In this document: piece by piece, positions 1-28,642 of the stretch
Layout of the letters: the number at the start of each line of letters is the position of its first letter
How positions within the stretch are numbered: the stretch's first letter is position 1
From: Persicaria tinctoria
Lineage: Eukaryota > Streptophyta > Magnoliopsida > Caryophyllales > Polygonaceae
Direction: 5' to 3'
NCBI GenBank assembly: GCA_037127255.1
Contig: JBANSL010000020.1
Span: forward strand, 51,125,098 to 51,189,097
DNA: 64,000 nucleotides
Translations under genes and position numbers: made by a program
Notes under the pieces: model-generated
Database searches by the model: none
What the model was told of the DNA's origin: nothing
What the model saw: the letters and a program-made list of their open reading frames with translations, nothing else

Positions 1-3000
1 CTGGAAGTTCCTTCTCTAAAACTTGGTGAGAAACAGGGGGAATTGGAATAACAAAGTTCTCAACAACAGGCATTGGCTCCTCTAAACCTTGCTGAATAAC
101 GGGAGGAATTTCTTTTAAGGGGACCTTTGGATAAGATTTCTCAACCGTCTCAAATACTTCTGCAAATGTTGGTACTTTTACAGGTGGAGTCAGCCCAAGA
201 CTCCATGATGGTTGCTCAAGCAGTATTCTCTCCATCTCTTGTTTTTTTGCAATAGCAATATCAACAATCTGCATTAGTCTATCTAACTCAGGATTGTTTG
301 CAAATTCATCTGGCGTTGTCCTTACTTCAGGAGAGGTAGAACCAACAATTCATTTTGCAGCATGGTTCATGTAATCGAGTTCAGGATCCTCGTGCTTCTC
401 CGAAACAGATTCAATTGTCAGCTCCACTACATTTGATATGGATTTCGCCAACATGCACATTGCAGCAACGTACCTCTCTTTTAGACTTTGAAGAAAAATT
501 TTAAAAGTTGTAATATACTAGCTTGTTTCATATATACAAAAAAAATACTATTAAAATATTAAAAACACTTACTTTTTTACCAGCTCCTTCAAACAGCGTA
601 GCATGCTGCTTTATTACATCTTCAGAAACCTAATTAACACACACTGTTATATATGATAACAAAAATATTGTGCTTGAAAACAATCAATAATAACATCCAT
701 GAAATCCATATAACTTATAAATCTCAAACAAACTCCCTCAAATCACTGAATCAAATTGAATCTCAAATGGCATGTGCTGAACCATTATCTGTTAAGTATG
801 ATGAACCAACTAATAAGATTTGATGAAAGAATACATTTTGTATTTAACCCTTGACTAGTTTAGGTATAAAACTGAACCAAACACATAATAAATACCTGAA
901 CAACATAGTATGATTTCATATATACAAATCCTTACTTTTTTAATAGAACCTTCAAGCAACATAGCCTGATTATTTGCTGCATCTTCTTTCCCAAATCCTT
1001 CAACTTCAGAAACCTATGTAACACACACTGTGTTATATGATAACATAGATATTTTGTTTGAAAAGGCAACCATTACTAACATACATGAAATCTATAAAAC
1101 ATATAAATCTCAAAAAAAAAAATCACTGAAACAAATGAACTACACTCGATCTCAGATTACATGTCCTGAACCATCCTATAACCAGTATGATGAACCAAAT
1201 ACTGAGATATTTGATGAACAACTCCATTTTATTGTTACCTCTGAATATCATCAATGTATATGACTGAACCAGACACAGAGTGAATGGATGAACAAGATAG
1301 TATATTATCGTATATGCAAAAAAAAACTATTAAAATATTAAAAACACTTACTTTTCTAACAGAACCTTCAAACATCGTAGCATGATTCTTTGCTGCGTCA
1401 TCTTTTCCATGTTTTCCAACTTCAGAAACCTATGTAACACACACGTGTTATGTATGATACCAAAAATATTGTGTTCGAAAAATATGTATAATAACATCTC
1501 TGAAGTCCATACAACATATAAATCTCAAACAAACTCAATCAACCCAAGGAACAACTGAATTGCAATCAAATCTCGAATAACATTTCTCTGAACCACATTT
1601 TATAATATACAAGGACTACTAACTGAACCACATTCTATTAGTTGAATGTGTTAAAGCATTATCTGGTCAATATGATGAATCAATTACTAATATATTTGAT
1701 GAACCATTTCATTGTATAGTTGACCCTTTAATAACTTATAGGTATATATACTGAACCAGACACAGAATAACTACATGAACACCACTGTATTTTAAAAACA
1801 TTAACATGATAATCTACACAACCAAAATACACTTACTACTTCTGTAGGAACATCAAAAGCCTTGGCATGTTCCTCTGTTGCATGCTCTCTATTGTGTTCT
1901 TCTTCAAAAACCTATAAAAGAGATTGTAAGTTATATCCTTTACATAGAGTAACATATATTAGTGAACAACATAATTATACTATACAATAACAATGACTAA
2001 ATAATATTACTTAATCAGACACAAACAACTCAGTGAAATATGCTTACTTTTTTGGGCTCATATTCAATTAACCCAAATATCTCTTGTTCACTCATATTGT
2101 CCCCGGCAGATAAAGAGACATGTTCTTCAACTGGCTCGATACTTAGACGTGGCAATACACGACCAGAACCAAACCCACTGCCTTTCATCTCTTCCCCTTC
2201 CCTTGCCTTAATTAACTGGGGTGTCCAATTGGCAAGAATGGGTATTGATCTCGGTTTCTCTTGCCTTTGAAGGCGAACCCGATCAAGATAAAATAGCTGT
2301 TATATCAGAAAAATACAACCAAATATAAGAATATATAAAGAACATGCAAAAATAATAAAATAAATTGCTACTTATTTATCTCACTTACCACCAAAAATGG
2401 GAGTGAGCCTGTGAAACTAGAATTCTTGTTACGAGACCATGTTTTTTTAGTTTCTACAAGCCGGTCAAGCAGAAACCCACACCAATTAAACTGCTTAATG
2501 CTTTCTAAGTTTTCAGTTACATTAAAGTAACTAAAGTTTACTGTTCCATTAGAGTTACATTCAATCAACCCTGAAATCAAGAGTATTATAAAACAAGTTT
2601 TAAAAAATTGCCCTCCATCTTTGTCAACAACCATTCCCTTCACCACATCAGCAACATGGATCCTATTTTTTTTGAAGGCAACTGAATTCTTCCACAGAGA
2701 TAGAGATGCATCAGTCCTTGTATTGAATGACGCATCAATAGGCACTTGAATTGACCCCATCGGAAATCCAAGAGTAATTGCAACGTCAACATCTTCGATA
2801 TAAATTGCATCTCCATTAGCTGTAATCAATGCAACCCGGTCTGCATCAAAGTTTTCCACCAGCCAACGTGACAGGAACAATGGCATATGCTTCATTTGTA
2901 GCTGCAAAATACTACCAAATCCCAGCTCTTTGATGCTTTTTCTCTGGGCATCATTGAGTTGTTTGAATGAGTCAACAAGAGAATATGGATGTGTCCTGGA

Positions 3001-3218
3001 TTCTATACAAAAATATGTCAGTGGTCCTTTTGGAGTAACCACAACTTTGGATTTGATTTTTGTTTCGTATTCTTCTTTTATGACAGGATCCTTGTCACTG
3101 TCGGGCTCTGGTTGTTTGGTAACCTTCCTCTTCTTTTTAACCCGTCTCTTCACCACCTGACTTTTCTCAGGTTTCCGTTTGAAATTCTTCAAAACAACAA
3201 CCAATGGGACGTCATCTA
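1..3218 (-). pseudogene. Ulp1-associated N-terminal domain protein (DUF1985/plant-mobile-domain-like), 3' part outside window
   Basis: The main exon is 2389-3217, read leftwards, with an AG acceptor at 3218 and a GTAAGT donor at 2388. It starts with a basic stretch (KRRVKKKRK) and then a domain of about 190 residues with the signatures KELGFGSILQLQ, LSRWLVENFD and DVAITLGFPMG. That domain typically precedes an Ulp1 protease domain in plant transposon genes (known family feature). The next exon, about 2047-2297, begins LFYLDRV. Four short exons (572-1912) and a long last exon (1-about 490) follow. The last exon has an in-frame TGA at 350-352 and then keeps coding character to position 1, so this copy is probably broken. 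The first coding exon was not located; the initiating ATG is upstream of 3218. The DUF1985 versus plant-mobile-domain assignment is from memory of the family and needs a profile search. Confidence 0.5.
574..1912 (-). repeat. Four tandemly duplicated phase-0 mini-exons with their introns
   Basis: Four similar exons of 57, 78, 78 and 75 bp lie at about 574-630, 936-1013, 1352-1429 and about 1837-1911. Each is bounded by AG on its 5' side and GTAAG on its 3' side (minus strand) and holds a whole number of codons (19, 26, 26, 25). The encoded peptides are alike: VSE-V-G-G-DAA, then A-M-L-EG-. The introns between them are also alike and carry the TGAACC motif array. The unit is about 400 bp. The exons can be gained or skipped without changing frame. 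Confidence 0.65.
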
Positions 3219-4160
3219 AAAAACAAATTAAAAGGGAAATATATCAATAATATGTTAAACAGTATTGAACCAAACTATAAGTTACTCCTATTTAAAAAAC
3301 AAAATAGTTACTCCTATACATTTCACTTATTTAAAACATGTGAAAAACTCAAGACAAATTTAAATGTTGAACAAGTTACTGAAAAACTGATGAACCCCAT
3401 ACTAATTATTTTAATGAACAGGTCACTATTACATCAAACCCCACATGCAGGATAACAAATTGAACAAATGTCACTCTTGAAACACTATTATAAACGAACT
3501 AACAAATAAAACAAATATTTAAACAACTATAACCCCTATAACCAAATAAAGTAAAATATAAACACTAGCTATATGGGATTTTCATTATTTATCAACGGCG
3601 ACAAACTCAGGACAGAGACAAAAATCGTTCCCCACTTCGTTCATGACAAAACGTTGACATACTTTGACTTTTCAAATACTACTAAAACAGAAATCCCAAC
3701 CAACCCTAAATGTTAATGAACTATAATCAATTAAAGTAAAGTATAAATAATAGCGATTGAGGGTTTTCGATTGTTTATCAACAAAAACGACTGAAGAAAC
3801 GGAGAAAATCATGGATGACAACCCGTTTAACTAATTTGACTCTTGAATTACTAATAAACCATAATCAGAAACAAAAATAAATGTTAATAAACTAGAACAA
3901 AATAAAGGTAAAGTATAGTCACCGTCGTGCGCGCGGGTTTGCATTTTTTGATCAAAAGCGACAACTGAGCAAAGAGGCAAACACACACAACAAAAAGGAT
4001 AAAATCGTTAATAAACGAAGGAATACTGATTAAACATACGAAAATGAAAAACAACGAACTCTGATTAAAGCTTACATTACCACGAAAATGGCGAGATCCA
4101 GAAGGTAATTCGAAACGACAGAGAGAATGACCAGTTTAAGGAGAGAGAGGGATTCCAGTT
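3219..4160. other. Spacer and 5' region of the DUF1985-like gene
   Basis: AT-rich sequence with several TGAAC motifs (3260-3480) and no credible long frame. Two similar stretches near 3560-3620 and 3740-3800 each contain a GGGTTTTCGATTGTTTATCAACA-like segment. On the minus strand, 4085-4160 resembles an untranslated first exon ending in a GT donor near 4079. No further gene is visible. Confidence 0.35.
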
Positions 4161-4394
4161 TTCAAGGCGATGAAAAGAGAGCAAACCCTTCACCACGCAA
4201 AGGTGCAAATTTGTCTGACATGTAACAACAAATACAGCAAGCAAAATGACAAAACTGCCCCTACAAACCGCTATTGGGCATTCTTTCTTTTTTTTATTAT
4301 CTATTGGACTATTAAAAAGGTATTGGGCTTTATACTCTGTCCAATTATTTCTAGAAAACTGACAGGTTTTATTCCATTAACCACACGTTATATA

Positions 4395-4912
4395 ATTTTA
4401 ATTTAATTTGAGGAAATTTTAGTTACTATCTAAGATGAATACTGAACAACATACACTACATATGCTGAATCAAATATAGTTAGTAATGCTAAACCAATTA
4501 AAAATACACTATTAAGGCCGCATATTTTTTTCATTGAATCAAACTCAATCATAGATACTGAACCCGTGAACCAATTCTTAATAAACAACTGAATCAGGTA
4601 TTAGATAAAATACTAAACCAATTAAAAACAGCCTACCTAACAGCAAATATTTTGTTCTGTGAACCAAATACAAAATTAGATGCTGAACCAAATCTTTATA
4701 AAATTTGAATTCAATTTAAGGAAATTTTAATTATTATCTAAAAGGAATACTGAACAACAGAGTATACATATGCTGAATCAAATAATAGGTAGTAATACTG
4801 AACCATTTAACAATATAAAAGGCCATATATTTTTTTCATTGAATCAAATCCAATCATAGATACTGAAAACCGTTAACCAATTCTTGATAGACTACTGAAT
4901 CAAGTAATAAAA
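4395..4912. repeat. Two copies of a ~205-bp spacer repeat, period about 307 bp
   Basis: Segments starting near 4399 and 4706 repeat the same order: ...GGAAATTTTA(G/A)TTA, GAATACTGAACAACA, CATATGCTGAATCAAAT, AGTAAT(G/A)CTAAACC/CTGAACC, ATTTTTTTCATTGAATCAAA, CAATCATAGATACTGAA, CCAATTCTTAATA/GATA. Each copy holds several members of the TGAACC motif set. The rest of 4160-5040 has no gene. Confidence 0.6.
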
Positions 4913-5041
4913 ACTTGACTGCCTGTTATCATATATATCAAAACACAAATACTTATCTTTGTCATTGTTACACAAAATTAACTGTCCCAAACGCCAAAAT
5001 ACATCCAGATAACCAACTAATAAAAGTTTCAACAAAAATCT

Positions 5042-6400
5042 TCAATTCCCAGGCTGGTAATCGGTAATTCTCGCAATAACGGGCTGCCTTTCTTCATTCA
5101 TAGAAGAAAATACAATCGCATGCATATACAACCTCCGGAGATCAGACACCACATTACACAAGTTCTTGGATAGGCCACAATTCCAATCATTTATACCCAA
5201 GTAGGTCTCCAAATGACGCATGCAAAAGACGCCACAGTCGATGTAATTATCAGTAGTCGCCCACGGTAAATCCAGACGGAATGATTTGCAGTTGCGAATA
5301 AGGTCCGCCTTGCTGGAGAGCATCATCTTATCTAGGTAGTTACTCATCAATTTAACCTTAATAATTAACATAAAAACAAAAACAATTAGTGGATGTTGGT
5401 ACAGAAAGAATAAATGAACCACATACATGTGAAAATGAATGTATATACTTACAGCTACTTCTGGAATGTCAGAGTATCTCAAGGCAAAGCCAACTCCCAG
5501 CTTCATGTTGTCAATAATAACAACTTCCTTTAACTTAAAGTTAAAGCATATGATATAATAATGCTCAGATGCAAGGATTGGCAACATGATCTGCGTAAGA
5601 ATATATTTAATTTAAATTACTTAATTCAAATTTAATTTTAGAAGAAATATAAAAATTAACAACAACAATTTTTAATTTAAATTCTTTATATAAACTTACT
5701 AATTCAAAGCCAGCCAAATTTAAAACAGATGACTCTCTAATAAGCTGCTCAAATTTAGTATGAAACATGAAGAATCGCCTTTCAAAGCTTACATCAGGAT
5801 TAGCCACAACTGAACCTAACTGAATAATATTAGCAAAGTTGTGTTATACAATGAACAAAAACAAAAATTAAATACTTAATCACATGCATTAAAATTTAAA
5901 ACTTACACTAAGATCACAAGTGCCAACATATCTCTTATAGCCATAAAATGTCTCTTGGTAGTTAAGAACTCTCACAAAAGTATCAATCAATTGGGCATCA
6001 ACATATTCATTAGAAAGTAAGGATTGAAACACCACACGTGGCACAATGCGATCTTTGTACTTAAATAGAACTTCCCTGTTACAAAACCAGAAGTATAACA
6101 AATTTACTAACAGATTAAAATTAAACAAACTATATTTCTTTCATGCACAACATTTACTATGTAAATCAATAAATTTAATATATATATAAGAGAAACTTAC
6201 ATCATATCATATTCAGGTTCAGCGACATAACTGATAAGCTTGCAAAAAAGTGGTGAACTTAGAAGACAGGGATTGACAACTTGGCTTCTCAAAGGGAGGT
6301 TTGATTCTTCTTGTCCATTCACTTCACCCAACTGTTGATTCTCCCTGGATTTCCTCTGTTTTTCCTTTTCATTCTTTATTTGCCTCTTCAACTGTCCCAT
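5042..6400 (-). CDS. Ulp1-type (C48) cysteine protease domain protein, transposon-borne
   Basis: Spliced minus-strand gene. ATG at 6398-6400 begins MGQLKRQIKNEK. Exons end in consensus donors at 6201 (GTAAGT), 5907 (GTAAGT), about 5700 and about 5456, and the last exon runs to a stop at 5042. The last two exons carry the protease core: EHYYIICFN (catalytic His), VVIIDN (Asp) and YIDCGVFCMRHLETYL (catalytic Cys). This order and spacing are typical of Ulp1/SENP proteases, which cleave ubiquitin-like SUMO conjugates. The Gln usually found before the Cys box is not evident; the sequence there reads TTDNYIDCG. No frame break is seen in the part examined. The exon-1 start is the first ATG after a TTTGTAG acceptor-like site, so an upstream non-coding or coding exon is possible. 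Orthology to host SUMO proteases is unlikely; the context is a transposon. Confidence 0.65.
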
Positions 6401-7470
6401 TGTTGTTTTATCTACAAAAAAATTTATTTAATATCTAAATTACATAACTAAAATAAAGCAATAAAGCCCACATAGTTAAATAATCTGAACCACTCATAAT
6501 AAGAATCTAAAAATAAACCAATAAATACTGACATGCATATATAAACTAATGGAATGAACCCCCACAGAGCTAGATCATCTGAACAACATTAAAAAATAGA
6601 TACCTGAATCAAACTAAAATAAAGCACTAAATCATCCAACCGCCACTTAAAGGAATGAAGGGATGAACCCCACAGAGCTAAGTGACTAAACCACGTTCAA
6701 GAATAGGTAAATGTCCCAAAGTAAAATAAAACAATAAATCATCCTAACCCAAGCTAAAGAAATTGTAGGAATGATCCCAACATAGCTAGATCATCTGAAC
6801 GACATGCAAATATATGTACTGAACCAAACAAAAACAATCATCAAAACTCATATATAGTAAAATACTCTGAACGAAACTCAAAATAACAATCAAAACAAAA
6901 TATTAAATCATTTTAACATCAGTATGTTAAAATACTATTTAAAAAATGCGTTAAACGACAATAAACCAGTAAATACCGTTGAAGATGATCTAAAAAACAC
7001 TAATTTTGAAAAAACATACTACTTATAGGAGAAAGAAAAAAAAGGAGCATGCAACAAGACACAACGACATACCGTTGAAGATGATGTTTTCCATTGTATG
7101 CGATAACAACCAGCAACTTCGAAACTCCGAATATGGAGGTTACGTGGAACCAAAATACAACGCTGATGACGATTTTGAGTTCAGATACAATAAAACAAAC
7201 AGACTTTTAGATTGAATCTAAAAACAAAACTCGATTCAAACTTTGAGTTTGAAATCGGGGGATGAAAAGAGAGAGGAGAGAGGAATTGATTACCTTCGGA
7301 CGACGATAATGCTTTTCTGGACGAAATCCCCTAGGGCAAAAGGTAATATCAATGACAGTAGCAGTTGAAAAGACAGAATCGGAATTCAAAAAAACAAAAA
7401 TACCCCCCGATTTTTACACGCGCCTGTGATTTCCGCGCCCCCCGAAATATTATTATTTTAATCCAAATCA
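6401..7470. other. E1 promoter-side spacer
   Basis: AT-rich, with TGAACC/TGAATCA motifs to about 6860 and no convincing gene. Near 7290-7330 the minus strand has an exon-like stretch with a GTAATC donor that could be an untranslated first exon of the Ulp1 gene. A CACGCGC heptamer lies at 7417-7423, about 110 bp inside the E1 end. Confidence 0.35.
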
Positions 7471-7524
7471 TCCAATTACACCCCTTCTTTCCTTCTCACC
7501 GGTACAAATTATTCTCAATTGAAC

Positions 7525-7531
<7 letters not shown>
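7471..7531. repeat. E1 right terminal inverted repeat
   Basis: Read inwards from the end it is AGGGTAGGGTTCAATTGAGA...TACCGGTGAGAAGG. The left end of E3 (from 18308) reads GGGAGGGTTCAAGTGAGAAG...GTCCGGTAAGAAGG and the right end of E3 (21478-21540) also matches, so E1 and E3 belong to one family. Confidence 0.6.

Positions 7532-7556
<25 letters not shown>
7532..7556. repeat. (TA)n microsatellite between E1 and E2
   Basis: About 12 TA units separate the E1 terminus from the E2 terminus. Confidence 0.9.
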
Positions 7557-7557
<1 letters not shown>

Positions 7558-7618
7558 CGGGTTGACTCCGGTGAAAACAAAAAATTAAGGTGAAAACCGT
7601 GAGGAGCCTTTTAATTGG
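7557..7618 (+). repeat. E2 left terminal inverted repeat
   Basis: Matches the reverse complement of 17736-17796 over about 50 bp, with a few substitutions. Confidence 0.75.
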
Positions 7619-8480
7619 ATGATAAATTATACATCCACGCGCTACTGGGTCTCTCTTCTTCACCTTTTCTGAGTTCCGCCTCTCTCTTGGCCTCAACTCC
7701 TTCCGACGTCCTCATCCGCCTCTCGTCGTCCGATACTCCGATCTGCCGCTGCCGTCACCGTCGCCCTCACCCGCTCACTGCCGGCCTCCAGGTCCTCTTC
7801 GCCCTTGCTCGTTGCCCTCGCTCGCCATCCACTCTAGTCTCAGATCTGGTGGATCTCGGCGTCGCTCGCTGCCCCTGAACTCGCCCTCGCTCACCGCCTC
7901 TGGTCCTCGTCGTCCTCTCCTCGCAGTCGTCGTCGCTCGCTCGCCGCCTCCAATCCTCTTTGCCCTCGCTCCTAGCCTCTAGTACTCCTCGTCATTCTCG
8001 CACGCTGCTCCAGTCCACTTTCAGGTATTCCTCTCCCCGCCGAGGTACTTCATCTGTGTGAAAATTTTCTCATAAGTTGGAATTCAGTGCTTTGGAGGGA
8101 TTTTAGGAATCGCTTGATTTGGTTCTAGAGTTAGGGACTAAACCTCTCCTCTTGCTGGTAGATGATTCAGACCTAAACCTATGTCAAAGTGCTTCATCTT
8201 GAAGAATTTGCTCTTGATTCGTCGACTTACTTGGCTGAAAGTTGCTTGATTGAAGTGGATCTGACCTATGGCTAGGGTTTCGGAGAAATTAGCAATGATT
8301 TTGCAGATGGTGAATTTTATTTGTAATGTTGGGAGATCTCCTCCTTATTTATAATTATCAGTGTCATTTTATTTCTATGCTGCTGAAATTCTAGAGTTTT
8401 CCTACTTCTCTTGGTAAATCGGATGCATTTTGCTGTCTTAGTTGCCTGTAAAAGCGTTGACAAAGTTGTGACATTTTTGT
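7615..8480 (+). other. GC-rich captured 5' region (probable 14-3-3 leader and intron)
   Basis: 7640-8030 is C-rich (TCGCTCGC, CTCGTC) and unlike the surrounding AT-rich DNA. It resembles a plant 5' untranslated exon followed at about 8029 by a GT donor and an intron, which ends at the GTGCAG acceptor just before the 14-3-3 fragment at 8484. I infer that leader, intron and coding exon were captured together at the DNA level. No protein is recognised in the C-rich part. Confidence 0.4.
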
Positions 8481-8483
8481 GCA

Positions 8484-8758
8484 GAAATGGTGGATGCCAT
8501 GAAGAAAGTGGCAAACCTTGATGTGTAACTGACAATTGAAGAGAGGAACAAAAGGAGAGCTGCATGGAGAATTTTGTCATCAATTGAACAAAAGGAGGAA
8601 TCCATAGGCAATGAAGCCCATGTGAAGCAGAACAGGGATTATAGACAAAAGATCAAGTCTGAATTGGAAGCCATCTGTGGTGATATCATGATTCTCATCG
8701 TTGAACATCTTTGTTCCTTCGTGTTCGGGTGCAGAATCCACGGTTTTTTACTATAAAA
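8484..8758 (+). pseudogene. 14-3-3 protein gene fragment captured by E2
   Basis: Reading forward from 8486 it encodes MVDAMKKVANLDV, a stop (TAA at 8526-8528), then [37 protein letters not shown]. These are the first helices of plant 14-3-3 proteins, phospho-Ser/Thr adaptor dimers of the cytosol and nucleus. Differences from the family: an in-frame stop replaces the Glu before the second helix, about 12 residues (the LLSVGYKNVIGA stretch) are deleted between EERN and the RR/ASW motif, and a later frameshift separates EHL from the ESTVFYYKM coding still visible at 8732-8758. A GTGAGT donor-like site follows at once, so the fragment ends in a former intron. It is non-functional as a 14-3-3. Confidence 0.85.
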
Positions 8759-9195
8759 TGTGAGTAGAGGTAGCCTATAATGGATTGTTGATTTTCATAT
8801 ACTGGCCTTCCAATGTTTGCCACATTATTGCAATCATCAATTGTCAATTAGTCTAAGTGGCAATTAACAAAGCATTTTCAGTTGTAAAACATAAATTTCT
8901 TTGTTTTGATCAAAGACAGGCCCTCAAATTTAATATAAGAGGTTATATAATACTCCCTCTGTATTTGATTAATGCATTATTGTTGGTGTGAATAATGGTA
9001 GAAACGTGTGTCGAAAGCTGTATACTAGTGAAGAGAAAGGAGGACAGTCCCGTTGAAGTTAGGTGTTTGTTTTTTATTCTCAACAACTTACATTCATTGT
9101 CTAGCATTCTATCTTTAAACCGATCTATGACTCATGGGTAAGGCCGAAGATTTGCACCGATACAACTAGAATTGCTTTTCAAGTGGTCGATTTCT
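8759..9195. other. E2 intron-like sequence
   Basis: AT-rich, no frame. It follows the 14-3-3 splice donor and is probably captured intron or element spacer. Confidence 0.4.
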
Positions 9196-10645
9196 TGATA
9201 TAACTATGGATTCAAGATTTAAAAATGTTGAACCTATATTTAATGGAGGCAATACACCATAAAAAAATTTGAATCTACTTAATAAATCAACATGAAATGT
9301 GAGGCATCAAGATGTCAAAATGTCACTTTAGGGTTATATAATACTATGGGTTCAAGATTTAAAAATCTTGAATCTACTTTAAATGGAGGCAATGCACCAT
9401 GAAAAAACTTGAACCTACTCAATAAACCAACATGAAATGTGAGGCATCAAGATGTCACTTTAGGGTTATATATAACTATGGGTTCAAGATTTAAAAATCT
9501 TGAACCTACTTTAATTGGAGGCAATACACTCCCAAGAAAATTGAACCTACTTAATAAACCAACATGAAATGTAAGGCAATAAGATGTCACTTTAAAGCTA
9601 TATATAACTATGGGTTCAAGATTTAAAAATCTTGAACCTATTTTAAATGGAGGCAATGCATCATGAAAAAAGACTTGAACCTACTTAATAAACCAACCTG
9701 AAATGGAAGGCATCAAGATGTTACTTTAAGACTAGATATACCTATGGGTTCAAGATTTAAAAATCTTGAACCCACAATTATAATAAACATTTTGGAAATA
9801 TTTTGATATTATAAGCAAGTTCAAGATTGTAAAATCTTGAACTCATAATCATAAAACAATATGTTCAAAATTTTATTACGTAGTTTCAAGATTTTTTTTA
9901 TAACGCTAGTTCAAGATTTTGTACCATATATTCAAGATTTTTATAAATATAGGTTTAACATCTTATAATTATATCTTTTATTAAGTAATATTTTAAAATC
10001 TTGAACCCATAACTATACAAAGAATAGGTTCAAAATTTTATTAAGTAGATTCAAGATTTTAAAATATTGAAACAATATTTAAATAAAACATTTCAATAGG
10101 TAAGATAATTTAAAAAAATCTTGAACCCACAATTATAATAAATATTTTGATATTATAAGTAGGTTCAAGATTTTAAAATCTTGAACCTAATTTAAATGGA
10201 GGTAATACACCATGAAAAAAACTTGAACCTACTCAATAAACTAACATGAAAGGTAAGACAACAAGATATCACTTTAGTGCTATACATCATTAATTGACGT
10301 GGCAAAAAACCCGGCCAGATTGCACCACAGAAAGACACGTAAGTGAATCGCACCAGAGCCCGCCACATAGGATTTCCACGCCTCTGTTTTAGTATTATAT
10401 ATTGATGATAGGTTCAAGTTTTTTAAAATGTTGAACCCACAATTAAAAAAATTCTAAATTTTATTAAGTAGGTTCAAAATTAAAATTTTGAAAAAAAAGG
10501 AAATTTTTTATTAAGTAGGTTCAAAATTTTAAAATCTTAAACCCACAATTATATATTAAAAAAAGATTAAAATTTTTATTAAGTAGGTTCAAGATTTTAA
10601 AATCTTGAGTAGGTTCAAAATTCTTAAAAAAAATTCTCAAGAAAA
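9196..10645. repeat. E2 motif array: TTCAAGAT/ATCTTGAA palindromes, partly in ~130-bp tandem units
   Basis: From 9196 to about 9790 a unit of about 130 bp recurs about 4.5 times (near 9205, 9345, 9477, 9607, 9742). Each unit contains TGGGTTCAAGATTTAAAAATC, TTGAACCTACTT, GGAGGCAATACACCATG, CTTGAACCTACT and CCAACATGAAATG. From 9790 to 10645 only the core motif continues, as GGTTCAAGATTTT and AAAATCTTGAACC pairs that could fold back. Some copies carry TAAGTAGGTTCAA. Confidence 0.85.
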
Positions 10646-10852
10646 ATATTATTTATTTTCAAATAAATGAAAATTTTAAACCTACGACATTGAATTTCAA
10701 AAATATTGATTTTTTTAGTAAAAGTCAAATATATAAAAAAAAGAAGATGTATGAACGGTCAAAGTGTGTTTCTTGCCTTGGTGGATCTCTATGAGGGTGG
10801 AAGAAAAGCAAGGAAATCAAAAGCCGAAAAGAAGAACAAAAAGTTGACGGTC

Positions 10853-17796: not shown

Positions 17797-18307
<511 letters not shown>

Positions 18308-18379
18308 GTGGGAGGGTTCAAGTGAGAAGTAATTGGTCCGGTAAGAAGGTGAGAAGCACTGGGGTACACGCGCTTCTAA

Positions 18380-18920
18380 TTTCTTATTCCCTCTCTCCTG
18401 CCAATCGGTCTCCTTCGCTCCCATGGTATTTCTAACGCCTACTCCGACCGCCATGGCCTCTCCACCAACGACCTTTATCACCCTCGACCTTTCTCGCAAC
18501 CTTCGGATCTGCCTCTTCGTCTCGCCGCCCTTCACCTCTCTCCGAGAGGTTGTCAATTTCCCCAGATTGGCCAGTGAGCGAAGAAACAGACGCGGCGCTT
18601 GCACTGAGTGCCGTCCTTGCACGGCTGAGTCCGATAGCACGCCAGGGGGAGCCAGCACTCGAAGATGCCGTGAAGGAACTCGTGGGAGTGTCCCTTCCTC
18701 CACCGGAGGATTCAATCGTTGTCCACCGGACGATTCGATCTCCGAGATTGAAGCCGGAGGGATATGTTGATCGATCGCTATCCTTGATACCGCCTCCCTT
18801 CGCCCTTCGCCGCTAGTTACCGTCGGTACCTCACCGTGTGTTATCGGGGTTGTCGCTTGTCTCCGTGCTCGAAGGTACTTAGCACGTCGTCGCCGCCGAT
18901 GCTCTCTACAACTCCAAACA
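18380..18920 (+). other. E3 GC-rich exon-like block of unknown origin
   Basis: CG-rich sequence bounded by AT-rich DNA, as in E2 where the equivalent position is captured gene DNA. Two overlapping forward frames (18423-18770, 18550-18816) stay open but resemble no family I recognise; one contains [19 protein letters not shown] think it is a captured host-gene leader or exon, but I cannot name the source. Confidence 0.35.
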
Positions 18921-19094
18921 AAGAAGATGACATGTTAGGGCTAATTACAAAATTGGCACAATGTTCTTAAAAATTGCTAATTACGAGCAAGTCATTGTTT
19001 TGTTAATCAAATCGGATTGGCCCCGGTGTAATTGGCATTTTGTTTGACTAAGATTCAAATCATATATACTTCGTTATGTTTAATTTAAGAAAAT

Positions 19095-19830
19095 ATAAAG
19101 TGGTTTAGGGTTTTAATACCAAGCAGTTCAGGGGGTTTATACCAAGCGGTTCTGGATTTTAAATCAAGTCGTTCATGGGTTTTATACCAAGTGGTTCAGG
19201 GTTTTAATATCAAGTGGTTCAGAGTATTTATACCAAGTAGTTCAGGGGTTTATACCAAGTGGTTCAGGATTTAATACCAAGTGGTTCAGGTTTTTTATAC
19301 CAAGTGGTTCAGGGGTTTATATCAAGTGGTTCAGAGTTTTTTATACCAAGTGGTTCAGGGTTTTAATACCAAGTGGTTCAGAGTTTATATATCAAGTGGT
19401 TCAAGATTTAATACCAAGTGGTTCAGGGTTTAATACCAAGTGGTTCAGGGGTTTATACTAAGTGGTTCAGGATTTAATACCAAGTGGTTCAATGTTTAAT
19501 ATCAAGTGGTTCAGGGTTTTTTAAACCAAGTATTTCAGCACATATAAATAGAAGTGGTTCACGAAATAAATTGTATTGGTTCATGAACCATTTGATTTAA
19601 AATAACTAAATAATTAAGTAAAAATTAAACATTACAAGAAAATAAAAGAAGAATGAAAACTTCATGAACCGCTTCTTTATAACTTCATGAATCACTTCTT
19701 GATAAAATTGAAAATGAAAGATAGAAATCTTGTTTCAGGGTTTTAATACCAAGTGATTTAGGGTTTTAATACCAAATGGTTCAGAGATTTTATACCAAGT
19801 GGTTCAGGGATTTTATACCAAGTGGAATAA
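19095..19830. repeat. E3 motif array: ATACCAAGTGGTTCAGGGTTT
   Basis: About twenty copies of a 20-25-bp unit with core AAGTGGTTCAGG, spaced by GTTTTAATACC or GTTTATACC. Degenerate members (AAGTATTTCAG, GAAGTGGTTCACG) lie at the edges, and inverted ones (CATGAACCACTT-like) at 19575-19700. GGTTCA is the complement of the TGAACC core in E1. Confidence 0.9.
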
Positions 19831-20106
19831 TAATAATTTTTTTTTATTGTGAAATATATATATTAATATGTATCTTAATGTGTAATTAATAAATTTATGT
19901 GAAAACATTATAATTATAATTAGAAAAATATCTATATCGAAAGTAGTAAAATCAATTTTGAGGCAATTCACTCCCTAGTAAATTTGATTATATGCTACAA
20001 ATGACAAGAGAAACAGCTTCTCAAAGTGGTGCATGAATTGGGTACCCACAGGAAGGTTTTAATTTCGATTCCCAGGATTCGCGCGTGTATGGACATGTCT
20101 TTTTAT

Positions 20107-20365
20107 TAAGGGTGGGCACGGGACGGGACGGGACGGGATTGGGTCGGGACGGGACTCGTCTCGCGAAATTTTTTCGGGACGGGATTGACATTTTTTTTTT
20201 GGGACGGGATCGGGACGGGATGGTGTCTGGACGGGACGGGACGGGCCTTGTCCCGCATATAAAAATAATAAAATATTATATAAATTTGCAAAGTAAAAAA
20301 TGCTTTCATAATTCATTATTTAGTATAATATGTTGAATACGGTATTATTCTCAACTATATTATTC

Positions 20366-20416
<51 letters not shown>

Positions 20417-20606
20417 ATACTATTATTAATTCATACAATGAATGTATAATTAATTAGAATGTTAAACATATTTGGCTACATTATCTTACTAGATTAAGAC
20501 GGAAAGGAATTGAGATGAGATTCACCAATATTGTCTCATTATCGATTGATAGTTGGGAAGAATACCGTATTTAATTAGCTATTTGCCTCTTGTAACTATA
20601 AATGGG

Positions 20607-20678
<72 letters not shown>

Positions 20679-21056
20679 CCCACGTTATAATTAAAAATAA
20701 AATAAAATAATATTACTTATTTTTATTGTTATTATTATAAAATAATTATACTTTACAAGAAAAAAAATATAATATGATATAATAATAATTTTATTATAAA
20801 TTAATATTATTATGAAATTATATTATAATATTATATAATAATATTATTATTATTATAAATTGAAAATTATTATTATAGTTATAAATAATATTTGCTCAAA
20901 TAATAATATTATTATTATTATAAACAAATATTATTATTATTATTATAAATGGAAGATTATGATTATAATTATAATTATAATATTTGCCCAAAATAATAAT
21001 ACTAATAATATATTATTATTATTCTATAATATTATAATATTATTATTATTATAAAA

Positions 21057-21098
<42 letters not shown>

Positions 21099-21338
21099 GT
21101 TGTTGTTTTTGTTGTTGTTGTTGTTATTATTATTATTGTTATTATTATTATTATATGTGGGACGGGACGGGATTTGCGGGATCCCACCGGGATCGTCCCG
21201 CATTTCGTCCCGCATAATTTTTGCGGGACGGGATCGGGACGGGATTCACTATTTTGTCCTAAATCCCACCGGGATCAGGACGGGATCGGGACGGGACCGG
21301 GACGGGATCGGAATTTGCGGGATTTGTGCCCACCCCTA
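20107..21338. mobile_element. Non-autonomous hAT element nested in E3
   Basis: The 8-bp target duplication CTTTTTAT is perfect (20099-20106 and 21339-21346). Terminal inverted repeats read TAAGGGTGGGCAC and TAGGGGTGGGCAC. Next to both ends are subterminal repeats of GGGACGGGATCGGGACGGGA type. The middle is AT-rich with long (TAA)n, (TTA)n and (GTT)n runs (20371-20415, 20611-20680, 21058-21152). No transposase frame; frames over the triplet repeats are artefacts. Confidence 0.93.
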
Positions 21339-21537
21339 CTTTTTATTAATTATTTGGCGGAGTGGCGCGTGCACCACATGCGAGGAGAGAGTGCGAGTGG
21401 GATTGTGTCCACGCGCGGGAGATTTTGGTTGAGCGCTGGCGCGGGAACTTTTTCAAGATTATTTTAATCCTCTATCAACCAATCAGATTCCTTCTTTCCT
21501 TCTCACTTTTAGAGTTGTATGTACCCGAACCCAACCC

Positions 21538-21540
<3 letters not shown>

Positions 21541-21589
<49 letters not shown>
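21541..21589. repeat. (TA)n(GA)n microsatellite between E3 and E4
   Basis: About 10 TA units followed by about 14 GA units. E5 ends in the mirror (CT)n(GT)n block at 25138-25172. Confidence 0.92.
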
Positions 21590-21592
<3 letters not shown>

Positions 21593-21770
21593 GGTATAAA
21601 GTGCACACCCCTTAGGGTGTACTTTAAGCACGATTCCTGACCATTGATTTGGGATAAGCGGATGACTGAGATTAAAAGGCTCTTTTTCTTTTTTTTTTAA
21701 TATAAAAAAACGTGGGGCCCGCGCACTAATTAAAAAAACCGGACTTACTCTCTTTGTTTCATGATGTGGG
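21590..21770 (+). repeat. E4 left long inverted repeat (pairs with 24958-25137)
   Basis: Shared blocks include GTGCACACCCCTTAGGGTGT, AGCGGATG(A/G)CTGAGATTAAA, GGGGCCCGC and the CGGACTTACTCTCTTT / AAAGAGAGTAAGTTCGG pair. Length near 180 bp fits Mutator-type termini. Confidence 0.8.
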
Positions 21771-21799
21771 CGCGTGTGGTGTAGAGAGAGCGAGATTAA

Positions 21800-22630
21800 A
21801 AACCCTAAATTTGAGGCTTCTTCTTTGACGTTCTGGAACCGAAGAGAGCGAGATCAAATGGATCGACTGAGTGGCGGCGTGGCTAGGAACAGGCGATGGG
21901 GTAATTTCTGATTGGCGGCGATGGGGAGTTCCTGATCGGCGGCGGTTGGGGGAGGTGTTTTGCGAATTCCGGCGGTGAGGCTAGGAAGGGGCGAGGCTGG
22001 CAAAGACAGTTCTGGGCGGTGGTGGAGACGGTCTGCGAAGATCGACGGCGGCGAAGGCTCAGGGGAGTTGATGATCGGTGCGACGGGGGTCTTCCACTGG
22101 TTCCCAAGTGAAGGTCGATGAGATGGGTGCCCAGATTGCCAATTGGGAACGAATTCGGAGGTCATCGTCTTCGCGTTTCTCTTCTTGCTCGGCTTTCCAA
22201 GTAAGACGGTGGCGGTTGGCGGTTTTGCGTTTCTCTTCTTGCTCGGCTTTCCAGGTAGGACGATCGCAACTGCAGTCCGGGAGATCGAGCCACCCCGACG
22301 GTTCGATTTCGAGTTCGCTCTAAGGGCGTCTTGGGTGCGGCGGTCTTCGGTGAGGCGACGCGCTGTCCTGGCGAATCGAGTCGAAAGGAAATGTGAGGCA
22401 TCTACTCTTCGTCTGCGAGGAGGGACGTTCGAATCGACTCCAAGGAAAGAGACGATCATTGGCCGCGGCGAGGGTGGGTGGGAGTGGGGGATGGGGTTTG
22501 GGTTTTTGGCTGGAAAGAGACGATCGATGGCGGCGGGGTGGGTGGGTAGGGGTGGGGGGTAGGGGTGGGGAAAGACGATCGATGGCGGCGGGGTTGGGGT
22601 GGGGGTTTGAGTTTGGGTTAGATATCGACG
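21800..22630 (-). other. E4 GC-rich exon-like block of unknown origin
   Basis: GC-rich, with an internal duplication: the segment TTTCTCTTCTTGCTCGGCTT occurs near 22176 and 22234, about 60 bp apart. Frames on both strands are open (minus 21854-22459 is the longest) but repetitive and basic, with no family recognised. Position next to one terminus parallels the captured gene DNA of E2. Confidence 0.3.
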
Positions 22631-22699
22631 AAATCGGGATAGGCCGACCTGAAAATTGTTTAATTAGTCGTAAATTATTTAGACGTATGTATCGAATTT

Positions 22700-23060
22700 C
22701 GGCAATTAGTGGGAATGAATTGGTAAATTATTCGGTGAAATCTGATTTATTATTCATCATTAATGAAGTCTTCGGTTTGACAAAAAATATAAAAACCGTT
22801 CATCGTACAAGCATTATTCGGTGAAATGTAAAACATTATTCGGTGAAATATAAACCATTATTCGTATAAAACAGAAGTATTGTTTAGGGAATTGGAGTTT
22901 TTTTTATCTGAAATTGATAAACAAAAAATATAAAACATTATTCGGTAGCATATGACAAATTATTCAGTGGAATTGGTAATTGTTCATCTAAACTAGATGA
23001 AAAAAGATATTGTGACATTATTCGGTAGCATATTAAATATTATTCGGTTAAATTGACAAA
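22700..23060. repeat. E4 motif array: ATTATTCGGTGAAAT
   Basis: About ten copies of TTATTCGGT(G/A/T), with variants TTATTCGTA, TTATTCAGTGG and TTGTTCATC, lie between the GC-rich block and the right terminus. E5 carries the same motif inverted. Confidence 0.85.
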
Positions 23061-23116
23061 TTTTAAAAACAAATGAAATTAGTTAAAATAAAGCGGGTTG
23101 AAAAAAATAGCTCACC

Positions 23117-23148
<32 letters not shown>

Positions 23149-23707
23149 AACAACAACAACAACAACAACAACAAAAAGGCCAAAAGGAGGGTTTCTTCAA
23201 GAATGGGTGGATGAGGGAGGTTGATTCACGCGCAGTTAAAGAAGTGGAAATGGAGTTGTGTGATTTTTGCACGTGGGTCCCACAATAAATTAAAACAAAA
23301 TTAAAAAAATCCCCTTTAATCGTAGCCATCCATCTCACTTTATCAACGGTCCATAGTTGTGCACAAGGTACACCCTAAGGGGTGTGCACAAGGGAACCAC
23401 TCCGAGTAATTTCCTTGTGCACATCCCTTAAGATATATCTTGTGCACATCTATGGGTCATTGATGAAGGAGAAATGGAATGCCATGATTAAAAGAAGTTT
23501 TTATTTTTTTTCTTTTTGAAATGATGGAACCCATGTGCCAAAAAAAACCATCTCCTTTCTTTGTACGTGTGATACACCCCCCACACCCCATTTTGCCTTT
23601 TTTTTAAAAATTATTTTTTCGGTATTTTCTTTTTTAAATTTTATTTTTAAAAATAAATAATTATGAGGAATTTGACAATGAGATGCACCTGATTTCGTTT
23701 TTTTCAA

Positions 23708-24130
23708 TTTTTGTAATTCCACCGAATAATATTTCACGTTATACCGAATAATATTAGGTTATGTTTTTTAAATATGGTGTTCCTAAATATCGATTTCTAC
23801 TTACAAAATTCACGTATTCCATTGAATAATTATTATAAATTCAACGAATAATATCGAAAACCTCGCAACTCAACCACACATTGATTTCAAATTACAAAAT
23901 ATACTCAATTTCATTGAATAAGTATTTAGAATTCAACGAATAATATGAATCAACAATCTCAATCACACATTAATTTCAAATTACAAAAGACACACATTCC
24001 GTTGAATAATTATTCAGAATTCAACGAATATATCGACAATCTCATATCTCAATCACAAAATACACACATTCCATTGAATAATAATTAGAGATTGACCGAA
24101 TAATGTTTGTATTCCACCGAATGATTCACC
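23708..24130. repeat. E5 motif array: CACCGAATAATA / CATTGAATAATTATT
   Basis: About fourteen copies of (C)ACCGAATAAT, CAACGAATAAT and CATTGAATAAT, the complement of the TTATTCGGT motif in E4. Confidence 0.85.
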
Positions 24131-24149
24131 TGTTGAACAATATCTCGAT

Positions 24150-24880
24150 TTCGAATGAGCCTTGGTCTTCATCATCACTGCCCATCTCCGGCCACCATCA
24201 CCGGCCACCATCTCCGGCCATCATCACTGCCCATCTCCGGTCTTCATCATCGCTGCTCGTCGCCGGAAACCGGCCTGCCCAGATCCACGATCTGCCGGCC
24301 AGATCCGGCACCACCATCACCCGACAGCCCATCCTCCCTCCTCTTCGCAGCAACCACGCAGCCACTTCGCCCTAACCCGCACCCTCTTCGCGCGCACCTC
24401 CATAAAACCACCTCCTTCCGTCCTTCCTTAGTTTTTCTGACCACCACACCCGCCGCCGGGAACCACCATGCCCAGATCCACGATCTGCCGGCCAGATCCG
24501 GCACCACCATCACCCGACAGCCCATCCTCCCTCCTCTTCGCAGCACCCACGCAGCCACTTCGCCCTCACCTCGCAACCACCACAACCGCCTTTCCTCTCG
24601 CTTTTCCGATCACCAGTGCCCACCTATAGCATACCCAACTGCCCCCGCTGGCCACCACTGCCCTCTGGCGATCGAATCGCACACTTCGCCTTCGCCGCCC
24701 TATCAACTCTCCTCCCTCTTCGCTGCCGCCTCTCCTCAACGACGAACCTCCAGCGGCCCTAATCGCCTCTTTGTACACCGCCATGAAGGGGATCTCCGGG
24801 TGATGGCGCCGATCAGACTGATTTTCCACCAAGATTTCAGATCTGAATTTCGTGGTGGCGATTTCTGATATGGTTTTCCA
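24150..24880 (+). other. E5 GC-rich block with an internal ~100-bp duplication
   Basis: C-rich and CATCAC/CACC-rich. The segment beginning CCCAGATCCACGATCTGCCG occurs at about 24279 and 24471 and continues as a match of about 90 bp. A forward frame (24155-24868) stays open across it, Pro/His/Ser-rich and low complexity, with no family recognised. Confidence 0.35.
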
Positions 24881-25137
24881 CCAAGATGACCGGCTAATTA
24901 AAAAAGGGGCCTAGGGTTTTTATCAGTTTCCTCCACCCGACCATACAATCACACGCGCCACATAATGATAGAAAAGAGAGTAAGTTCGGTTTTATTAATT
25001 AGTGTGCGGGCCCCACCTTTTTTTATATTAAAAAAAAAGAACAAAAGCCTTTTAATCTCAGCCATCCGCTTACCCCCATCCAATGACCAAGAATCGTGCA
25101 CAAAGTACACCCTAAGGGGTGTGCACTTTATACCCAT

Positions 25138-25173: not shown

Positions 25174-25496
25174 TGATGGTTCAGGGATACTCATGGCTTA
25201 TTGTGTAACATGTGAACAAATCTGGACCGTTAATTAAAAGAAATGGAGGGCTGTGATAATTAGCCATTTTTGTTTCTTTTTTTTTAATGAAAATGGTGGG
25301 GTCACTAGCTGAATTTGCATTACCTTCCAACGGAGCGCGTGAATGGGTGCGTGAATGGAGTGCCACACACATATTTTGATGAAGTGTGGGTTTGGGTGAG
25401 TTAGTGGCCTGATGAAAGTTTTTTTTTTTTTTTTTTTTTTTTTGTAAGAAGAAACCCTAGTGGATAGATACACCGTACCAATGGAAATCAATTATT

Positions 25497-25850
25497 ATCT
25501 ATGAATAATCTATCAATACAATCGAACAATATCAAAATACCATCGAATAGTTCAACGATACCATCGAATAGTGAACTAATTGTCAGGGAAATTGTCATAA
25601 GTATTAATGGCTAATATTCGGGTATATTGATGGATTATTCGGTGGTATATCTTGATTATTTGATGGTATCGCTTGATTATTCGATTGTATAGATTAATTA
25701 TTCGATGATGTTACAATATTATTCGGTTACTTATGTCATTTTAAGACATAACTAAAAATTATTTGATGGCATCGCTGGATTATTCGATGGTATCCCATGA
25801 TTATTCGATGGTATCCCATGATTATTCGATGGTATCGATGTATTTTTCAT
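25497..25850. repeat. E6 motif array: ACCATCGAATAG and TTATTCGATGGTAT
   Basis: About fifteen copies. The left third is in the CGAATA orientation, and the rest is TTATTCGATGGTATC. The array resumes after the solo LTR at about 26910-27005. Confidence 0.85.
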
Positions 25851-25856
25851 TCATAT

Positions 25857-26886
25857 TGATAACTCCACTCCCTTTGATGAAAAACGGAAATAGTTTCAAA
25901 GGCTTTGACAAACAGTTTGTGTCAAAGGTCTTGACGATACATCTGTGTTGATGAAACACAAAACCTGCACGTTATTATATTATGTCCGAATATTATATGT
26001 TATTATATGCTTCCGGATATTATTATATATATGCACTAACATTTCAGGAAGCTTTTTGAATTATATCTCCTTCCTTGGGCTGAATAAACGTGGAGAATAA
26101 AATCGGAAAGATTGTGGCTTCAAAGTTTCCCAGAATAGAAGATTGTGAAGATTGCCATGATCTCTAATAGCCGTTGGAGAAGATTCCTTCCTCAAGTGGT
26201 GCCGATGATCTTCACTATATAAAGGAGATGAAGAAGAGAGAGAGGACTGACGCACTTCAAGAATATCATTGCACAATCAGCCCTCAAGTTTACGATCTCT
26301 CTTCAGCGTGTTCTCTCTGCTTGTTCTTAAGAGTCTTATATTTTGTTTCAAAGCATTTAAGAGATACACAGCGAGCTTATAGGATATATTTCGAGAGAGT
26401 GTTATACTCAAGAGTTTGTAACTCAGGAAGTTGACACTAGGCGATTGATTCACTAAGTGTAAGAGGATTGTACTAGATAGCATAGAGAGGTGGGGCTCTT
26501 CTAGATTGGTCTAGGACTCCAAGGGAACGTGAGTTGACTAGATTGCAATTGTATAGGAGAGAGGCTTCTCGGGGAGCTATTATGATCCTAGGTCTTGTGA
26601 ATCAATAAAAGCCGGTTGAATCCTAGGGTTGTGGAAGAACCCTAGGCGGGGACGTAGGCCAAGTTCGTGCCGAACCTCGTTAACAATTCGTTGCGTCCTT
26701 TATTTACTGCTTTACCTTATTTCCGCACTTGGTTTGAATTGTTTAACTTTGTGATTCAGGTTTTCTCAAAGGGTTTGACACGAGCTTCAAAAGTCTTGAG
26801 AATATCTGCAAAAATCCGGCATACTCTATTCAATCCCCCTTCTAGAGTATTTCTATATTACTTTGTTTTAAATTATCGAACCTTCA
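25857..26886 (+). mobile_element. Solo LTR, 1030 bp (copia-type), copy 1
   Basis: Starts TGATAACTCC and ends CCTTCA, with a perfect 5-bp target duplication CATAT at 25852-25856 and 26887-26891. It is closely similar throughout to the LTR at 31259-32277. A TATA box is visible (CACTATATAAAGGAGATG near 26213), and the 3' part (GGGGACGTAGGCC, GTGCCGAACCTCG) is typical of large copia LTRs. No internal region or partner LTR is present, so it is a recombination product. Small frames inside are not genes. Confidence 0.93.
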
Positions 26887-27429
26887 CATATAACCCCCAA
26901 CAGCTAATATTCGGGTTTATTGATGGATTATTTGGTGGTATCGCTTGATTATTCGATGGTATCGTGATTGTATCGCTTAATTATTCGATGGTGTTACAAT
27001 ATTATTCGGGGAATTGAAATTATAGATTAGGTTTTATATAGTTTGTTGGGGAATTGAAATTATAGATTAGGTTTTACGCGCTACCAATTATGAGTGGGAT
27101 ATTTTTTTAATTTTCTTTACAAAATTACCCCCTTACGTGGCAGAATCTTGACCTTCAATTTCCTTTAGATCAACGGTTCAGATTTATTCACATGATACAC
27201 ATTAAGGGCTGAGTACATATGATCTAATCATATGTACTCACCTCTTATTGTGTAACATGAGAACACATCTAGGCCATTGATTGATGCAAAATAGAGGGCT
27301 GAGATTATTCAAAAATATTTGATTAATTGTAATTTTGGGTTTTCACAAAATAAAACACTCTCACCTGAGCGCGTGATATCACTTAAATCCCTAACCCTAT
27401 TTATACTAATTGACACAGAGACGATAAAA

Positions 27430-27910
27430 CACTCTCACCTGAGGAGAGGCGATGGCGTGGAGGCGACTCCGGCGATATGGGACGTCTAGTTGAAGGCCGG
27501 CGATGAGCCGAGGCGAAGGCGAGGAGGCGACTCCGGCGTTGGGAAATCGAGTTGAAGACCGGCTATTCGGAGGGATGAATGATCAATTGTGCTGGTTTGA
27601 AGACGATAGCGACGACGGAGGGATGGAGGGACGGTCCGGACGGAGGCACGATGGCGCCGACGAGGAAGACGGTGGAGGCGCGAGATGGTATCGACGTCGG
27701 CAGATCTGGGCGTTGGAGAACTTTCAGAAGGCAACGATGATTTCGAAGCCATGGGCGACTCCCTGGTGGTGCCAGTCGGGAGGTTTTTTGGTGGGCGGAT
27801 GATGGTTGAGGGTCCATTTCCGAAGGCGGCGGCGTTTTTGAAGCCATGGGCGACTCCCTGTGGTGGTTTTGCAGTTGGCGATTTGTGTTGGTAAGGGTTT
27901 CATTCCTAAT
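27430..27910 (+). other. E7 GC-rich exon-like block of unknown origin
   Basis: G-rich, with internal short duplications: GGCGA(C)TCCGGCG near 27460 and 27530, and GAAGCCATGGGCGACTCCCT near 27746 and 27841. Open but low-complexity frames on both strands; source gene not recognised. Confidence 0.35.
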
Positions 27911-28099
27911 GCTTTCAATTCGGGTTGTCAGGCATAGTTTTCACTGGATCTGGGTTCAAAATGTACCTCGGACGGCTTCAATTGCAGCCATATGTGTGAG
28001 ATTTTTTAATTGGATCTGGTTTCGTTCCTGATGCTTTCAATTGAGTTACATTTTCGTTCCTGATGCTTTCAATTGGTTTTGTTAATTGGTTTTGTGAGT

Positions 28100-28432
28100 G
28101 GTTGCACTATCGAATAATATCGTTATACCATCAAATAATCCAGCTTTACCATCGAATAATCAAGCAATACCACCGAATAATTTTTAGTTAAAAGAGATGT
28201 CATCGAATAATTAATCAATACCATCGAATAATCAAACTATATCATCGAATAATCAAGTGATACCGTCGAATAAAAGTTCAGAGCGTTTTCAGGGTGCTAA
28301 CCGTTTAGAAAAATTCATCGATATCATCGCATAATCAATGGATACGATCGAATAATTTGGCAATACAACTGAATAATTTAAAGTTACGATCGAATAAGTT
28401 GGCGATACAACTGAATAATTCAAAGGAAAAAA
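28100..28432. repeat. E7 motif array: ACCATCGAATAATCAA
   Basis: About fourteen copies of (A)(C/T)CATCGAATAATCAA, ACCACCGAATAAT and ATACAACTGAATAATT lead up to the right terminus. Confidence 0.85.
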
Positions 28433-28642
28433 ACTCAACCCCACAAAACCCAAAACAAACCCACACACGCTAAAAAGGAGAGTGAAGTAGAATTATTGGT
28501 GGGTCCCACCATTTTCTCAATTAAAAAAAAACAAAATTACATATTAATCTCAGCCATTCATTTCACCAAATCAATGGCCTAGATGTGTTCTCATGTTACA
28601 CAATAAGGCATGAGTACCCATGAACCATCCTCTATACTCAAC

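Follow-up and report, generated by a model that had tools for sequence, protein, structure and literature searches.

We analysed a 64,000-nt window of the Persicaria tinctoria genome (contig JBANSL010000020.1, positions 51,125,098 to 51,189,097), in which seven transposable elements, here called E1 to E7, follow one another within positions 1-28642; the remainder of the window spans 28643-64000. The elements carry arrays of short repeated words, which might be the targets of a sequence-specific anti-silencing protein of the kind encoded by the VANC genes of Arabidopsis VANDAL transposons, as a preliminary description of this DNA had suggested. E1-E7 are stacked end to end and none is nested in another, while E2 is broken by a long interspersed nuclear element (LINE). 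Microsatellites mark four of the six junctions, namely (TA)n at E1/E2 and E2/E3, (TA)n followed by (GA)n at E3/E4, and (TC)n(TG)n at E5/E6; none is present at E4/E5, at E6/E7 or to the right of E7. Terminal inverted repeats (TIRs) are present in E2, E4, E5, E6 and E7. Since the ends and the setting resemble the architecture of the SaTar and MuTAnT elements, we infer that all seven are Mutator-like DNA transposons stacked mostly at microsatellites. No transposase gene was seen in the visible 7.5 kb of E1, either in the list of open reading frames (ORFs) or by Pfam on two ORFs; the left part of the element lies outside the window.

E1 (1-7545, minus strand) holds two genes, designated A and B. 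Its left end falls outside the window and its right end lies at a (TA)n tract, as judged from the gene models and from a right terminal sequence that matches both ends of E3. No strand is assigned to the remaining elements. The non-autonomous E2 (7546-17795) has TIRs at 7543-7626 and 17728-17810, which are 82% identical over a stretch that takes in some of the TA tract, and an array at 9198-10620 composed of GGTTCAAGATTT and AAATCTTGAACC, also without assigned strand, in which several inverted pairs are separated by 20-21 bp. The LINE within it (10787-17540, edges approximate, plus strand) encodes endonuclease, RVT_1, RVT_3 and zf-RVT domains and has the direct repeat TGTTTCTTGCCTTGGTGG at both edges. 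E3 (18304-21540), likewise non-autonomous, contains a minus-strand array of AAGTGGTTCAGGGTTTTATACC at 19098-19825, with a period of 22-23 and the core TGAACC; further along, at 20100-21330, GGGACGGGAC-type repeats with a 69% match to each other flank an A/T-rich tract. E4 and E5 stand back to back (21590-25137) with mirrored CGAATAA arrays at about 22728-23046 (minus) and 23723-24103 (plus). Because the outer ends of this pair are closer to each other (88% identical) than E4's own two ends are (73%), the pair may have moved as one unit. E6 and E7 (25175-28642, junction at about 27216) are also back to back, with the opposite relationship between their ends (79% for the outer ends, 85% for E7's own). 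Their CGAATAA / CCATCGAATAA arrays, mirrored and of period 21, lie at 25635-25828 and 26949-27008 on the minus strand and at 28111-28397 on the plus strand. Roughly 1 kb of E6 (25855-26900) sits between two array copies (25610-25726 and 26903-27009, 84%) and has by eye the look of a solo long terminal repeat. A GC-rich block can be picked out by eye in each of E2 (7640-8050), E3 (18360-18900), E4 (21850-22620), E5 (24160-24870) and E7 (27420-27880). In blastn no block matched that of another element, and it is possible that they are captured gene pieces.

The arrays contain two core words. Enrichment was calculated as the observed count against an order-2 Markov expectation, with ranks taken among 6-mers occurring at least five times. 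TGAACC ranks first in the non-coding DNA of E1 (23 copies vs 2.72 expected; 1234 distinct words), second in E2 without its LINE (23 vs 2.07; 1286 distinct words) and sixth in E3 (21 vs 1.38; 1163 distinct words), where it follows simple repeats, repeats of the GGGACGG type and a word that overlaps it. The word is not enriched in the exons of E1 (3 vs 2.31), in E6/E7 (4 vs 2.45), in the LINE (2 vs 3.87) or at 28643-64000 (10 vs 17.9), and it is absent from E4 and E5. CGAATA ranks first in E6/E7 (25 vs 3.55) and is raised modestly in E4 (7 vs 1.36) and E5 (6 vs 1.45), with other words outranking it in both; it is at expectation in E1 (2 vs 1.92) and absent from E2 and E3. That short words recur in every element, as the preliminary description had it, is borne out for E1-E7, where they exceed expectation. 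Its further statement that each element has a motif of its own did not survive, and the idea of five independent motifs was rejected, as the word counts reduce them to TGAACC in E1-E3 and CGAATAA in E4-E7, with differences in the flanks only. E1, E2 and E3 have TGAACC in common because the E2 motif TTCAAGAT sits inside GGTTCAAGATTT and AAATCTTGAACC, and the E3 motif GTGGTTCAGG is CCTGAACCAC reversed.

The division into two words was compared with the kinship of the element ends. Twelve ends were aligned pairwise, each pair against 200 dinucleotide shuffles, and a pair passed if its score was reached by at most two shuffles. Among the seven ends of E4-E7, 18 of the 21 pairs passed. Four of the ten pairs within E1-E3 did so, including the right end of E1 with the left end of E3 (score 52; best of 200 shuffles 25) and with its right end (56; 24), as well as the two ends of E2 with each other (67; 31); no pair joining E2 to E3 passed. 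In blastn, with the TA tract included, E1 and E3 match at 7484-7557 with 18356-18282 (83%) and at 7452-7555 with 21458-21561 (78%), and without the tract the two matches stand at 83% over 48 columns and 74% over 89 columns. The ends of E1 and E2 are 69% identical over 95 columns, TA tract included. Beyond the E1/E3 ends, no mutual similarity was found between E1, E2 (7546-10786 only) and E3 by blastn with the low-complexity filter at E<=1e-4. Word and kinship agree well in E1/E3 and among E4-E7, and the agreement is weak in the case of E2.

Gene A, a PMD-like gene with a VANC-like layout, occupies 1-3944 on the minus strand and runs off the window. Its exons are modelled at 3923-3944 (tentative), 2389-3215, 2048-2296, 1837-1911, 1352-1429, 936-1013, 573-629 and 1-475; GT donors and AG acceptors bound the exons from 2389-3215 onwards. 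The first exons of both E1 genes were guessed from the reading frame and the splice signals, and the acceptor of the last visible exon of gene A was picked from four so as to keep the frame open. The main exon, previously placed at 2389-3217, is 2389-3215 in the gene model, bounded by an AG acceptor and a GTAAGT donor. This copy of E1 is probably not fully functional, because, in the model of gene A, the last visible exon is interrupted by one in-frame stop. Between 573 and 1836 the gene consists of tandem exon+intron units, whose introns (630-935, 1014-1351 and 1430-1836) are 69-76% identical pairwise and together hold 10 TGAACC copies. The units encode a repeated peptide: three of them are alike (15/26, 12/19 and 10/19 identical residues), and a fourth agrees with the others at 7/25, 6/25 and 6/19 positions.

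The words of E1 are enriched in intergenic DNA and in introns of genes A and B alike, in four non-coding stretches of which three are tandem duplications. Besides the tandem units, there is an array at 3266-3461, within gene A's first intron, an intergenic array (4379-4909, no strand assigned) formed by a duplication of 4379-4603 and 4686-4909 (83% identical), and one at 6480-6840 (no strand assigned), within gene B's first intron, with units of about 108 bp and a tandem duplication at 6510-6837. Arrays had been said to lie always near the element ends, which this placement contradicts. They had also been called always non-coding, which holds for E1 as an enrichment (23 non-coding copies) and not as a rule, since three copies are coding.

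Gene B (5042-7094, minus strand, 324 aa; exons 7073-7094, tentative, 6201-6411, 5907-6075, 5700-5819, 5453-5590 and 5042-5356) is Ulp1/C48-like by eye. A His-Asp-Cys pattern can be discerned at H184, D201 and C261, within ASEHYYIICFN...IIDN...DCGVF, and the residue six before the Cys is Thr; in Ulp1 this position is Gln. Pfam-A scans were run at E<=10, with filters that lose most matches with E above about 0.1. At this setting no C48 profile matched gene B, whether it was scanned as ORF, as spliced protein or as C-terminal part, and the last of these gave DELLA only (E 0.1, chance level). Sequence searches of the PDB, which yielded chance-level matches at most for any query, returned CovR alone for gene B (E 0.48) and, in a second search, nothing; no relative was found at E<=0.1 among 846 candidates from the protein database. 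The earlier assignment to the Ulp1 type is kept here as a pattern seen by eye, with neither a Pfam C48 match nor a PDB relative behind it.

For gene A, one related protein, P0001, was found in the database. It is 65-71% identical in amino acids to the main exon (71% over 72% of the query) and was the one match among 2554 candidates, and again the single match among the best 8000 word-sharing candidates. That P0001 keeps the same exon open at this level of identity suggests selection on the gene A protein.

Taken as a whole, the locus is read most readily as a VANC-like, sequence-specific anti-silencing system, a tentative reading to which we give somewhat less than even credence. Its plausibility comes from the layout, in which the words sit in non-coding tandem repeats and introns, the two cores match the similarity of the ends, and gene A has a domain followed by duplicated exon+intron units. 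We propose that the product of gene A, where E1-type elements are intact, binds the TGAACC arrays in the introns and intergenic DNA of E1, that it could also bind those of the related non-autonomous element E3 and probably of E2, and that binding would remove silencing at these arrays. Gene A is put forward as the leading candidate for the binder, ahead of gene B and of the part of E1 beyond the window, and both DNA binding and anti-silencing would be activities of its product. The Ulp1-like protein of gene B might have a role as well, for example in removing SUMO from silencing proteins. E4-E7 had been counted among the clients of the E1 protein; as they carry another core, they would not be, and the CGAATAA clade might instead be served by a different protein from another element outside the window.

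Several results weigh against this reading. The E1 protein had been taken for DUF1985-like, and the profile search led us to reject that assignment: neither DUF1985 nor DUF287 appeared in the Pfam-A scan of gene A at E<=10, where weaker matches are mostly filtered, and the sole match was to the Plant Mobile Domain (PMD, PF10536; 22.9 bits, E 5.6e-5), under the cut-off of 34.9. PMD is also the sole match of P0001, at a weaker 14.7 bits (E 0.018). An AlphaFold model of the gene A exon with P0001 was unusable (mean predicted local distance difference test, pLDDT, 33). The kinship of the ends is uneven, as the pairing of E1's right end with E2's left end was marginal (24 vs a best shuffle of 22), the two ends of E3 failed against each other, and one of the 35 cross-group pairs, the right ends of E3 and E4, passed at 2/200 shuffles. 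In addition, the ends of E6 hold GGTTCA/TGAACC, and TGAACC is therefore present to some extent in the second group too. Conservation of the core gave little help: in E1 and E3, units one array period away show no extra core conservation, while the core stands 2nd of 22 blocks in E4, 3rd of 22 in E5 and 2nd of 21 in E6/E7. In the duplicated introns of gene A, the GGTTCA columns are identical at 0.906 vs 0.723 elsewhere (pairs counted in both directions, which inflates the Fisher significance), but 12 of the 47 6-mers with at least four copies there outscore GGTTCA, and one ties with it.

CpG depletion, too, offers no consistent picture across the non-coding DNA, exons and arrays, with observed/expected ratios of 0.71 in E1 non-coding DNA, 0.45 in E1 exons, 0.32 in the E2 array (8 CpG) and 0.22 in the E3 array (4 CpG). 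The ratio reaches 1.8-2.1 in the arrays of E4-E7, whose word itself contains CpG. One observation on the arrays counts in favour of the VANC-like reading. Decayed units in E4-E7 were defined as those one period from the 31 intact CGAATAA copies; 11 of the 15 with at most two mismatches differ solely by CpG to TpG or CpA, a proportion given here with no rate control. The pattern fits past methylation of the E4-E7 arrays, without demonstrating an escape from it.

The most serious alternative is that the arrays are neutral minisatellites, in which slippage and unequal exchange multiplied a 20-24 bp word present in the ancestor of each clade and no binder is involved. We regard this as unlikely, although the arrays are mostly tandem repeats and conservation of the core beyond descent is not demonstrated by the one-period and duplicated-intron comparisons. 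Gaps of up to 70 bp between words were counted, with 19-25 bp as the interval of interest, which contains 19/35 gaps in E1 with a relaxed word set (3/7 with the exact word), 6/15 in E2, 14/17 in E3, 3/3 in E4, 1/1 in E5 and 9/15 in E6/E7, and spacings of 20-25 bp are found in every array. This is weak evidence, since 8 of the 25 tandem-repeat rows at 28643-64000, some of them overlapping, have such periods as well, and a reading of the spacing as two helical turns was given little weight for the same reason. What neutral growth explains less easily is that in E1 one word is enriched in the intergenic DNA as well as across introns of both its genes, and that E1, E2 (to 10786) and E3 share a word while lacking blastn similarity beyond the E1/E3 ends.

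The words could also bind a transposase or a transposition helper rather than an anti-silencing factor, as the subterminal repeats of En/Spm and Ac serve as binding sites. The position of the arrays of E4-E7, and of E2 once its LINE is subtracted, about 200-700 bases from an end would suit this explanation, as would the GGTTCA word within the terminal sequence of E1, of the left end of E3 and of E6. We nevertheless find it improbable, because the copies in E1 are scattered over kilobases of introns and intergenic DNA, more than end-binding requires, and in E3 the main array is set back about 800-1500 bases from the left end, and farther still from the right. An action of the word in E1 RNA, with GGTTCA in pre-mRNA introns affecting, for instance, splicing, is very unlikely indeed. 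All 23 non-coding copies in E1 do share one orientation relative to both genes, but the intergenic array carries the word too, E2 has it in both orientations (12 plus, 11 minus), the ORF list reveals no such genes in E2 or E3, and in the duplicated introns over 100 bases separate the copies from the acceptor.

Two further features lie in the remainder of the window. At 37000-47000 there is a retroelement region with gag and aspartic protease, in which CTCGA/TCGAG words reach 25 per kb and palindromic ACTCGATATCGAGT repeats occur; it is another transposon with an enriched short word. A coding segment for a laccase-like multicopper oxidase is located at 54300-55355 on the minus strand. Together with the retroelements and the plant-type domain of gene A, it gives the window the character of plant DNA.

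The closest known parallel is the VANC/VANDAL system of Arabidopsis. VANC genes encode tandem peptide motifs, their exon/intron structure goes together with tandem repeats, and introns of VANC21 and VANB21 contain repeats that bear the motif (Hosaka 2017, PMC5735166). As in E1, the elements of VANC21, VANC6 and VANC1 have a short motif in non-coding tandem repeats, including introns of their own genes; as in this locus, the motifs differ between families; and as in gene A, the candidate gene combines tandem peptides with exon/intron repeats (PMC5735166). In contrast to that system, gene A matches neither DUF1985 nor DUF287, and the elements described here are set at microsatellites. A VANA transposase and VANB accompany VANC in VANDAL elements. 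The preliminary VANC comparison is thus retained for the layout and given up for DUF1985 and for a separate motif in each element; judged by its domain matches, gene A would fall outside the VANC family. Terminal repeats make no clear difference, since a review calls VANDALs non-TIR (PMC13317346) while TIRs are listed among the non-coding regions of VANDAL21 (PMC10398659). The same review describes KIUs (Kaonashi) as VANC genes of VANDAL elements that contain an Ulp1 domain (PMC13317346). E1 resembles KIU in uniting an anti-silencing candidate and an Ulp1-like protein in one element, and differs in that its Ulp1-like protein is a separate gene, likened to Ulp1 by eye.

In architecture, E1-E7 are nearer to SaTar and MuTAnT, which are microsatellite-targeted Mutator-like elements (MULEs) (PMC5907723, PMC4486113). 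SaTar elements share with them the flanks of (TA)n or other microsatellites, the end-to-end stacks and the lack of mutual interruption (PMC5907723), and MuTAnT has a similar architecture (PMC4486113); unlike in both, the E4/E5 and E6/E7 junctions are without a microsatellite. SaTar-type elements are further marked by ends shared with an autonomous MULE transposase and by target-site duplications of 9-11 bp in copies outside microsatellites; in the visible sequence neither a transposase nor a target-site duplication was identified. A term search of the SaTar paper (PMC5907723) did not find 'motif', 'ulp' or 'plant mobile'. The general idea is already published, as anti-silencing in eudicot Mu-like transposons (Sasaki 2022, EMBO J, via the review PMC13317346) and as Ulp1-bearing VANC genes. 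It is a bolder and rather doubtful proposition that the locus represents a second, separately built class of anti-silencing system, with a PMD-like, non-DUF1985 protein, a stand-alone Ulp1-like protease, microsatellite-stacked MULEs and two clade-specific words (TGAACC and CGAATAA), together with non-autonomous clients in one locus. Because the host's own silencing involves MAIL1, a plant mobile domain protein (PMC6419827), this domain type would then serve both silencing and anti-silencing. If the VANC-like reading is true, sequence-specific anti-silencing would reach to MULEs stacked at microsatellites and would include a protein in which no DUF1985 is detectable, and a shared word would mark which non-autonomous elements are its clients.

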